DNA of 24,443 nucleotides from a virus, in IMG/VR virus record IMGVR_UViG_3300007363_000099, positions 1 to 24,443 of that record; one strand, 5' to 3'. Each line of letters starts with the position of its first letter. Positions within the stretch are counted from its first letter, which is position 1. Both the position numbers and the translations under genes were made by a program. Under the pieces are notes generated by a model. That model worked only from the letters and a program-made list of their open reading frames with translations. It was not told the origin of the DNA and did no database searches. Shown piece by piece: positions 446-4,423 of the stretch.

Positions 446-703
446 TTATTTTTTCCCATTAAAATATTTCCAAGCAACTATCGGCAGCCACTCTCCACAA
501 ATCGTCTTTTTCGGATACACTCTCTTCGCCCCCTTTTTTGAGAGGAAGGTCTTCTCGATAGCCTTCATCCGCTTATTCTCGTAAATTTCCTCATTCGTAA
601 GTTCTCGCCCCTCGACTGCCCACACCTCTTCCCGCAGAGCGGTGGCTGCAGATAGGTAAACAAGTTGATGATATTCCCGACTATATTTAGGAAGGTCAGG
701 CAT
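446..703 (-). CDS. Hypothetical protein (85 aa)
   Basis: The ATG at 703 has a well-placed AGAGGTG six bases upstream, so I chose it. A longer version starting at a GTG at 766 would add 21 residues that also read like protein (NAPFYLWEVLEEVLI), but that GTG has no ribosome site. The protein is basic towards its C-terminus, with charged helices (LTNEEIYENKRMKAIEKTF) and a C-terminal WLPIVAWKYFNGKK. No family is recognised. The 109 bases between this start and the next gene upstream (704-812) hold no other clear gene. Confidence 0.55.
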   Translation of the reverse strand: MPDLPKYSREYHQLVYLSAATALREEVWAVEGRELTNEEIYENKRMKAIEKTFLSKKGAKRVYPKKTICGEWLPIVAWKYFNGKK

Positions 704-812
704 AATCAACACCTCTTCAAGAACTTCCCATAGATAAAAGGGGGCGTTCCTTAAGACTCTCACCACGGGAAAAAAGTTGCATAAGATAGCCCACTTAGCA
801 AATTTTGTAACG

Positions 813-998
813 CTAAGAAAATATCGCCCTTGAGAGTCTTGAAACCGGAAATCCTCGATTCCAGCCTTCTGGAAGTGTCACCGATGAGTCATACTCGCAT
901 TTTACCCATTCTGTGGGTCTTGGTACAGGGTCTGGAACGCTTTCGAATAGAGCCAACACTTGGTGGCGTTTTGTTTTTATGCCGTATTCGCGTCTCAT
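813..998 (-). CDS. Small hypothetical protein coupled to Tad2-like gene
   Basis: A 61-residue frame whose ATG overlaps the stop codon of the Tad2-like gene in an ATGA (995-998), a typical sign of translational coupling. The N-terminus is basic (MRREYGIKTKRHQVLALFES), the centre contains PVPRPTEWVKCEYD, and no known domain is seen. The coupling is the main support that it is a real gene. If real, it is made together with the Tad2-like protein and may serve the same process, but that is inference. Confidence 0.45.
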   Translation of the reverse strand: MRREYGIKTKRHQVLALFESVPDPVPRPTEWVKCEYDSSVTLPEGWNRGFPVSRLSRAIFS

Positions 999-1177
999 TT
1001 CACCTCAAACCAGTCATCAGCTTCACAGTCCTCAAGCACCATGGTATGGTAGCTATTATTGTGTAATACAACACGTCCAGAAGGTGAAAGAGCAAGATAC
1101 AGATCACTTCCCTTCCACCTCTCTCGGGAAAACTTTTTCCCTTCTTTAAGGCTTTTCAACACTTCCGAAAACGTCAT
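995..1177 (-). CDS. DUF2829 / Tad2-like protein (candidate anti-Thoeris)
   Basis: A 60-residue protein with the hallmarks of the DUF2829 family: N-terminal TFSEVLKSLKEGKKFSRERW (the family's F-x-E-A-L-x-x-L-K-x-G-K-x-x-x-R-x-x-W pattern), then G-x-x-L-Y-L, and a C-terminal EADDWFEV matching the family's A-x-D-W-x-V ending. Some DUF2829 proteins are known as Tad2, which bind and sequester the NAD-derived cyclic signal (gcADPR) made by Thoeris ThsB and so block that anti-phage defence. This copy is short: the loop between the two motifs is compact compared with many relatives. The ATG at 1177 has AAAGG seven bases upstream, just after the tRNA 3' end, so it probably shares a transcript with the tRNA. 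Family assignment is fairly sure; anti-Thoeris activity is inferred. Confidence 0.72.
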   Translation of the reverse strand: MTFSEVLKSLKEGKKFSRERWKGSDLYLALSPSGRVVLHNNSYHTMVLEDCEADDWFEVK

Positions 1178-1189
1178 AAACCAACCTTT

Positions 1190-1262
1190 TGCTTACAGAG
1201 AGAGTCGAACTCCCAACCGCCTGATTACAAGTCAGGTGCTCTACCAGTTGAGCTATGTAAGC
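1190..1262 (-). tRNA. tRNA-Thr (anticodon UGU)
   Basis: On the minus strand a complete cloverleaf can be drawn. The acceptor stem is GCTTACA/TGTAAGC (seven pairs) with discriminator A. The D stem is GCTC/GAGC around AACTGGTA. The anticodon stem is CCTGA/TCAGG around the loop CTTGTAA, giving anticodon TGT (reads ACA, threonine). A five-base variable loop follows, then a T stem GGGAG/CTCTC with one G-U pair and loop TTCGACT. No CCA is encoded. The 5' 38 bases overlap the end of the upstream protein gene. It is probably phage-encoded, since phage-like genes lie on both sides. Confidence 0.93.
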
Positions 1263-1620
1263 GGAATGATTCTCCACATTTTTTGCAGAAAAAAGTAGAT
1301 GGATAATCTGCTCTTGCTGCTTCCTCGTGCCACTGATGAATACACTTCTTTTCTGAGCAAAGAGTAGAGGAAATTTCTCCACCTACATTTGCCTTTCTTC
1401 GCTTAATCGCAGTACGGATCCCTAGGATGTTGGTCAAGATAAAAGCGAGATAGAGCGCCGATTGCGCCCAAAGTTCCCTTGACCCATCTAGAAAGCACCA
1501 AAATACATTTGCACATAGCCACAAGATACTCGATACCAGCAAATTACCTCGAGCGTTGACATAGGCGCCAAACAGGCTCACGCCAGTAAAAACCCAAGGA
1601 ATAAATTGAAACAAGCTCAT
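1225..1620 (-). CDS. PnuC-like small membrane protein with zinc-ribbon tail
   Basis: The 131-residue protein has two parts. Residues 1-70 form about three membrane segments, with an N-A-R-G turn and a W-x-x-x-N-x-x-W segment, resembling the short PnuC-like proteins common in phages (PnuC proteins carry nicotinamide riboside into cells). Residues about 88-120 carry C-x5-C, His and C-K-K-C-G, a likely zinc-ribbon. The last 12 codons and the stop lie inside the tRNA-Thr gene, so tRNA processing would cut this mRNA. The start ATG at 1620 has only a weak GAGAA upstream. Transport function is uncertain: half-length PnuC-like proteins are rarely characterised. Confidence 0.62.
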   Translation of the reverse strand: MSLFQFIPWVFTGVSLFGAYVNARGNLLVSSILWLCANVFWCFLDGSRELWAQSALYLAFILTNILGIRTAIKRRKANVGGEISSTLCSEKKCIHQWHEEAARADYPSTFFCKKCGESFRLHSSTGRAPDL

Positions 1621-2912: not shown

Positions 2913-3200
2913 CTAGTTGCCCCATAAGAAGCGATAATTTTTTGTCGCTTCTTCACAAATCTTTACGTATTGCTCGTAAGGAAGATCTGATGTCCTGCAA
3001 ATATTTGCGATCATGCACTCGCACGCATAGATAGCGTTGGGGGGATCGATCCCGTTCTCCATGAAGTGCTGCTGCAAAATCTGACAGGCTTCAGCCGTCT
3101 TTTCGGGAGAGAAGACTGTTACCGCTTTTTCACCCAATTGATCCGGCCGCTCGGATTCTGCTGCGCCCAAGGGTTCTGCCTTTCCTTCGCTTTCTTCCAT
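2913..3200 (-). CDS. Hypothetical protein overlapping terminase end (95 aa)
   Basis: The gene begins inside the last 82 bases of the large terminase gene in another frame. A GAGGGAG eight bases before the ATG at 3200 supports the start. The first 30 residues are Glu/Gly/Ala-rich and probably disordered; residues 31-95 look folded and helical, with several cysteines (ACECMIANICRTS) and a C-terminal NYRFLWGN. No family is recognised. The position, translated from the same message just after the terminase, suggests a packaging or head-related accessory role, which is inference. It converges with the ParB-like gene, with a single base between the two stops. Confidence 0.62.
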   Translation of the reverse strand: MEESEGKAEPLGAAESERPDQLGEKAVTVFSPEKTAEACQILQQHFMENGIDPPNAIYACECMIANICRTSDLPYEQYVKICEEATKNYRFLWGN

Positions 3201-4423
3201 AACTCAAACTCCCTCTCTTCGTTGGATAGTTCTCTTAAATCTTTTCGCTCCCCAAAATGAGAATAGAGGGCGTATCTCAGAGCGTCGCACGCGTGATCAT
3301 TTTTCTTCAAGGGAACGTCCTCTCCTCTTTCCCCTTTCTTGCTGTCCCAGACGTAGGATTGAATCTCTTGGATCAGGTTTTGGCACTTGTATACTATTTT
3401 TAAGTCGCCAACAGCCAACCGCATAGCAACAGATCTAATCCCGTTATCGACATCGTTTTTAGCGTCCCGAAGAACAGCGCTCCCCTTTCGTCTCAGCTCC
3501 ACTTTAAAGCTTGCAGCTGATGGGTCGATGTAAACCGCTTTCGGATGAATGTCGCCTAAGAAGTCGTAAAAGTCATCTGCATACTCTGCATCAGTTTTTT
3601 GAAATCCTTCCTTTTTAGAATCAAAATAATACTCCTTTTCGACCCATATTTTGGGTTCGACAGTATCATTGAATCCAAGTAAAAGAAAACAAGTTGGGTT
3701 ATGGGTTCCATAATCGACGGCTGCAATATAGTATTTGGCAAAAGCTGGAGGCTGCCCTATCACATGAATTCCTTGATCGAAGAAGTCATAAACACTTCCT
3801 TCTGCGAGGCACCATTCTCCCTCAATAAACCTCTTATACCAAAGACCCCGGTACTCTTTTTTGAGGTTTTCGATGAATTCCTTTTCCAGGGAGGGGTTAT
3901 CTTCAATACGGAAGTTAAAGACCTTGATGTCGAGTTCCTCGGCTCGATCAAGGAAATCTTTTTTGAGCCAATGAAACGGGGAATCAGGGTTGGTCGTGCC
4001 AAGCAGCTTTGCCCCTTTACTCGACAAGCGGCTGAGGAGCATCTTATAGAAGCCTTCGGGAATCAAGGTGATTTCATCGACATAGGCACCGGAAAAGGTG
4101 GCGCCACGAATCTTTGACTCCGCCCTCTCGTCATTCGCTCCAATGCAGATGAGCTTTCTCCCGTGGAGCATCATCTCTTGCTTGCCAAGATAGAGGTGAA
4201 CCTTCCCCTTGGTGATCTTGTCGAGCTCGGCGAAGATATTGTTTTTGATGGTGTGGATGGTACGCCCCACAATTGCGATATTGCCAGGGGGCGCCTCTTC
4301 ACACATTCTTAAAAGAGCGTAAAGGGAGATGTGGGATTTGCCCGAACGGACCGACCCCACCCAGATGTTTTGACGAGCGGTTGACTCATGAAAGCTTTTT
4401 AGCTGCTTTTGGCTAAACGGCAT
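3119..4423 (-). CDS. terL: Terminase large subunit (PBSX-type)
   Basis: This is the packaging motor and nuclease that cuts concatemeric phage DNA and pumps it into the prohead. The ATPase domain has Walker A GSVRSGKS (residues 23-30), Walker B GAYVDE (112-117) and the coupling motif GTTNPD (142-147). The C-terminal RNase H-like nuclease has the expected acids: D237 in AAVDYG, D300 in YIDPS, and D376/D380 in DHACDALRYAL. At 434 residues it is full length for the PBSX/Terminase_3-6C group. Its start overlaps the small subunit gene by 11 bases, and its end hosts the start of the next gene. Assignment is secure. Confidence 0.95.
   Translation of the reverse strand: MPFSQKQLKSFHESTARQNIWVGSVRSGKSHISLYALLRMCEEAPPGNIAIVGRTIHTIKNNIFAELDKITKGKVHLYLGKQEMMLHGRKLICIGANDERAESKIRGATFSGAYVDEITLIPEGFYKMLLSRLSSKGAKLLGTTNPDSPFHWLKKDFLDRAEELDIKVFNFRIEDNPSLEKEFIENLKKEYRGLWYKRFIEGEWCLAEGSVYDFFDQGIHVIGQPPAFAKYYIAAVDYGTHNPTCFLLLGFNDTVEPKIWVEKEYYFDSKKEGFQKTDAEYADDFYDFLGDIHPKAVYIDPSAASFKVELRRKGSAVLRDAKNDVDNGIRSVAMRLAVGDLKIVYKCQNLIQEIQSYVWDSKKGERGEDVPLKKNDHACDALRYALYSHFGERKDLRELSNEEREFELWKKAKERQNPWAQQNPSGRINWVKKR

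Follow-up and report, generated by a model that had tools for sequence, protein, structure and literature searches.

The virus fragment analysed here, an IMG/VR record of 24,443 bases that we call the window over its whole length, encodes on its minus strand a 60-residue protein (MTFSEVLKSLKEGKKFSRERWKGSDLYLALSPSGRVVLHNNSYHTMVLEDCEADDWFEVK; ATG start) that belongs to the Tad2-like family (PF11195) but lacks the expected parts of the ligand pocket. Tad2 proteins, made by phages, capture bacterial alarm signals. Since the pocket motifs are missing, sequestration of gcADPR or His-ADPR in the canonical way is unlikely, judging from the sequence, and we give an even chance to a role as a small binding module, the partner of which is probably a protein.

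Membership in the DUF2829/Tad2-like family had been proposed in an earlier note on this DNA, and the Pfam search bears it out: PF11195 is matched over residues 1-39 with E=3.1e-9 and 37.7 bits, against a gathering cut-off of 25. The same note saw both ends of the DUF2829 pattern as kept. The N-terminal one is exact (E5 to W21), whereas the C-terminal one, A53-D-D55-W56-F-E-V59, reads A-x-D-W-x-x-V and is one residue off the A-x-D-W-x-V described. The shortened middle that it reported is there: solved Tad2 chains measure 88-104 residues (AcrIIA7, with an N-terminal extension, 158) against 60 here, and by sequence they align well to residues 1-35 only. Global alignments with relatives score 10-18 standard deviations over shuffled sequences, so this relatedness is not due to chance.

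An AF2 model derived from 18 aligned sequences (pLDDT 92.6, pTM 0.77) places helices at residues 3-10 and 48-51 and strands at 15-18, 27-30, 36-39 and 56-59, giving a predicted compact fold in the order helix, strand, two-stranded hairpin, short helix, strand. In the PDB search with this model, Tad2 chains take the top 14 places (probability 1.00, E 0.0015-0.026, TM 0.66-0.72 relative to query length), and no other protein among the 50 matches listed exceeds a probability of 0.38. Because five canonical Tad2-like rows stand in the alignment behind the model, this recovery is not fully independent, and we take it as good but not independent evidence for a Tad2 fold. The single-sequence model (pLDDT 74) gave no Tad2 match or anything else useful in the PDB search, and PADLOC and NCBIfam returned nothing useful for the window protein. 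The AF2 model further finds a match in Klebsiella phage KP8, a predicted protein of 61 residues.

A canonical Tad2 sponge forms a homotetramer in which two ligand pockets are shared, and it blocks Thoeris by binding gcADPR or His-ADPR. The gcADPR pocket of Tad2 involves the beta1-beta2, beta3-beta4 and beta4-alpha3 loops, strand beta4 and helix alpha3; the dimer interface lies at alpha2/beta2, and the known cyclic-dinucleotide site of the family in an insertion after beta2 (review, PMC12043709). Ligands differ within the family and include gcADPR, His-ADPR and cyclic dinucleotides (PMC12043709, PMC13299392; also PDB titles).

Which of these parts are present in the window protein? Ten canonical sequences share invariant F3, A6, G13, R18, W21, N22, G23, W69, S72, D75, L77, D80 and W81. 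Two patterns, W-N-G-[KQN]-[GN] and W-x-x-S-x-x-D, which we assign to the beta1-beta2 and beta4-alpha3 loops from the prose description in the review and not from coordinates, occur in 10/10 canonical and 0/13 compact sequences (the window protein and 12 relatives), the canonical set (n=10, viral) and the compact one being small and grown from chosen seeds. The aligned solved Tad2 chains show both motifs as well. The window protein has W-K-G-S-D in place of the first and, where the fuller form W-[LVT]-[APC]-S-x-x-D of the second would stand, H-T-M-V-L-E-D. Neither alpha2 nor a full beta3-beta4 hairpin was found, the model being without alpha2 and one strand; alpha2 is apparently absent too from some motif-bearing relatives of 71-76 residues. 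W21, G23 and D50 are kept, so a residual pocket may persist. Leave-one-out profiles part compact from canonical sequences without error (the window protein scores 62.4 bits with the compact and 37.2 with the canonical profile), a separation that is descriptive rather than an independent test, as the two sets were chosen partly by length. Loops differ strongly among compact members. Hits in Lactobacillus phage Lb and Shigella phage ShigP1 were rejected as compact members, since they have the canonical W-x-x-S-x-x-D loop.

Comparison with the closest known proteins locates the loss. The best match in an isolated phage is a protein of Erwinia jumbo phage pEa_SNUABM_37 (QXO10186.1, E=2e-6), which aligns to the first 40 residues free of gaps and shares the L-x-P-x-G hairpin. 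However, it retains W-N-G-K-G and W-V-A-S-V-S-D and has 16 residues more, which are deleted in the window protein at the place expected for the beta3-beta4 hairpin and for the loop that precedes helix 3. SPO1 Tad2 (gp34.65; PDB 8sme, 8smf, 8smg) resembles the window protein in the N-terminal PF11195 pattern, the C-terminal D-W and the modelled fold, with TM in the range given above, but it is about 90 residues long and carries W-N-G-K-N-M and W-V-P-S-Q-T-D; the window protein has neither motif, nor the middle segment. The best PDB match in both sequence and fold is Myroides odoratus Tad2 (ModTad2, PDB 8v3e, 9eib; His-ADPR), whose 88-89 residues include the canonical motifs and the long middle that are absent here.

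Table 1. Features of the 60-residue protein, its gene and the terminase gene (window coordinates)
Feature	Position	Strand	Evidence
Compact Tad2-like (PF11195) protein, 60 residues	995..1177	-	Pfam match; AF2 model (pLDDT 92.6) with Tad2 chains as sole confident PDB matches
Helix alpha1, residues 3-10, in conserved N-terminal pattern F-S-E-V-L-K-S-L	1148..1171	-	Model; F3 and G13 the same in all compact and canonical sequences
Strand beta1 and W21, residues 15-21, K-F-S-R-E-R-W	1115..1135	-	Model; R18 at least 90%, W21 conserved in most relatives
Beta1-beta2 loop, residues 22-26, K-G-S-D-L where canonical sequences have N-G-K-G-M	1100..1114	-	Canonical motif in 10/10 canonical, 0/13 compact
Two-stranded hairpin, residues 27-39, Y-L-A-L-S-P-S-G-R-V-V-L-H	1061..1099	-	Model; gap-free alignment to Erwinia phage SNUABM_37
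Junction, residues 40-47; 16 SNUABM_37 residues including its beta3-beta4 region absent	1037..1060	-	Pairwise alignment
C-terminal short helix and strand E-A-D-D-W-F-E-V, residues 48-59	1001..1036	-	Model; D55-W56 invariant
Putative ribosome-binding site AAAGG, 7 nt 5' of ATG, adjoining tRNA gene	1185..1189	-	Sequence
tRNA-Thr (TGT), immediately upstream of the 60-residue ORF	1190..1262	-	ARAGORN
Terminase large subunit (TerL)	3119..4423	-	phrog_2, E=1.5e-54

The earlier note had presented the protein as a minimal version; it is not a singular one. Starting from window, sister-phage and other seeds, we collected 12 further compact domains of 59-69 residues from viral contigs; with the window protein as sole query, viral contigs yielded zero relatives. 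Compact domains also occur in isolated phages, namely Lactobacillus phages Bromius and Lpa804 and Bacteroides phage C3_41T2LP. Scanned singly, 13/13 compact domains match PF11195 (best E=1.3e-11), with E values up to 10 allowed, such that some of these matches may fall below Pfam's cut-off. The form is already covered by Pfam and by PHROG families without a function. Residues 1-56 align with few gaps to positions 1-55 of phrog_6670 (120 positions), and residues 1-57 almost gap-free to positions 89-144 of phrog_872 (172 positions), which matches canonical Tad2s as well; neither family has a function label, and their proteins, unlike the window protein, bear extra domains or tails. A third family, phrog_643, labelled 'transcriptional regulator', matches compact and canonical Tad2-like proteins alike. 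As the compact form is found in viral contigs, isolated phages and PHROG families and in the match of the model to phage KP8, it is, by sequence comparison, neither new nor unique to this phage, and the window protein is a further member of a known compact subgroup.

The compact architecture, with its conserved core, recurs in unrelated phages of several hosts. A tree of the core only (29 columns) was unresolved, with seven label changes and no starred branch, and does not decide between a single and multiple origins; in it, proteins from three jumbo phages group weakly with those of the window and the sister phages. In the Lactobacillus phages, the compact domain has a long C-terminal extension and occurs in tandem copies. 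In two adjacent genes of phage Bromius (L003:1501-2262), a compact Tad2-like domain, recognised by eye in the second, stands at the start and is followed by C-terminal extensions that differ.

What phage does the window come from? Its genes include a terminase, RusA, Erf, a RecE-like exonuclease and replication genes, as well as genes that look like tail-fibre genes from their repetitive sequence. TerL served as query for sister phages and for inferring the host. Relatives with 61-68% identity are all viral contigs. PF11195 is present in 2/21 TerL relatives searched whole, several of which are fragments, and both of these domains are compact (IMGVR 3300005921, L072/L074; IMGVR 3300003319, L073/L076, the latter with a score under Pfam's cut-off). 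Among the sister loci, these two match the window protein best (E 1.7e-9 and 3.2e-7, respectively) and are 34-39% identical to it with the same core. The TerL proteins of these two phages are 64-67% identical to that of the window, and in both the compact domain lies near and downstream of TerL, the region that holds it in the window too, on the strand opposite TerL. In L074, it is fused to DUF551.

When one genome was scanned for each species, a single TerL relative turned up, in a Parachlamydia MAG; 234 Chlamydiota genomes, searched in turn, yielded four, with 39-53% identity. Tailed-phage-like contigs carry these related TerL genes in the four genomes (L091, L111, L113 and L114), which suggests a phage group of chlamydia-like bacteria whose host assignment is by binning. 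Two of the contigs are 36 kb and 35 kb long; the phage-host link is therefore one of binning, not of an integrated prophage. The window phage probably infects a member of the Chlamydiota (chlamydia-like bacteria). Among Chlamydiota genomes, one MAG (G094) has a PF11195 match just downstream of TerL and another genome (G107) has a methylase-like gene, named by eye, next to a compact domain.

The 60-residue ORF looks like a real, expressed accessory gene of the phage. Its stop codon is overlapped by the ATG of the next ORF, and it is probably co-transcribed with the tRNA-Thr gene. Measured against the codon usage of the other window genes, its own frame scores +0.14 bits per codon and is the only one of six with a positive score, the other five ranging from -0.16 to -1.0. 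Next to it, ORF 813-998 overlaps, in a different frame, one whose open stretch runs from about 862 to 446 (window 446-998, minus strand); a +1 frame change, either a sequencing indel or a real frameshift, may have split what is a single protein. On the other side, the stop of ORF 1225-1620 (minus strand) falls within the tRNA-Thr gene. This ORF encodes a small membrane protein that shares 27% identity over 67 residues with the product of L091:11106-11387, a PnuC-like protein (NMN_transporter, E=2.1e-8) in the related phage contig of the Parachlamydia MAG, where an AAA_28 gene adjoins it. As in the window, tRNA genes lie near the Tad2-like genes of jumbo phages Erwinia SNUABM_37 and Kosakonia Kc263.

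We infer the binding-module role from the motif loss together with the DUF551 fusion, the tails and the tandem copies. The compact protein keeps the C-terminal D-W and the core made of alpha1 and beta1, with an altered beta1-beta2 loop; the segment it has lost carries, in canonical Tad2, both the loop with W-x-x-S-x-x-D and the beta3-beta4 hairpin. Such a protein would not sequester gcADPR or His-ADPR in the manner of SPO1 or Myroides Tad2. It would be a small, probably oligomeric module, made during infection, that binds a host protein more likely than a nucleotide signal and that would contribute to host takeover or counter-defence.

Could the protein hold a signal after all? Searches of the probable host phylum found ThsB_TIR in 1/116 Chlamydiota genomes, and TIR_2 and SMODS above cut-off in 1/90 each; a search for ThsA-type proteins (PF18185), in which no control gave a match, carries no weight here. 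These few TIR/Thoeris and CBASS hits lower the need for a signal sponge but do not exclude it. A sponge for a different nucleotide-type signal, acting through a re-shaped pocket or a different oligomer, is a doubtful reading: it fits the variety of ligands already described in the family and the loop variation of compact members, but the window protein is without the insertion after beta2 that holds the cyclic-dinucleotide site (PMC12043709), and SMODS-type CD-NTases are as rare in Chlamydiota as stated above.

The earlier note named the protein a candidate anti-Thoeris sponge. In that case it would be a minimal true Tad2 whose oligomer, with a reduced pocket, would sequester gcADPR, His-ADPR or a similar TIR-derived signal and shield the phage from Thoeris. 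Family and fold agree with this proposal, as do the retained W21, G23 and D-W and the accessory location of the gene, but the pocket side of it is not sustained: the protein has neither of the motifs predicted to line the pocket (W-N-G-K-G; W-x-x-S-x-x-D) nor the beta3-beta4 region, and ThsB_TIR is scarce in the probable host phylum. We consider it improbable. More improbable still is a decayed, non-functional remnant of a Tad2 gene, a reading that would account for the lost motifs and the patchy presence in sister phages (2/21, several being fragments) but not for an intact ORF with a ribosome-binding site and coding-like codon use, nor for a compact architecture shared with unrelated phages, which is not expected from decay.

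It is a speculative and rather unlikely view that compact Tad2-like proteins constitute a separate, widespread class of phage binders, in which the Tad2 core is kept and the pocket swapped to hold a novel signal or a host factor, in phages of chlamydia-like bacteria and of other hosts. PF11195 proteins may receive 'Thoeris anti-defence Tad2' labels by annotation transfer. A clear PF11195 match can go without the expected pocket motifs, so such a label should not be taken to mean that the protein acts against Thoeris. Should compact members turn out to bind a signal, they would show the minimum of the Tad2 fold that is required.
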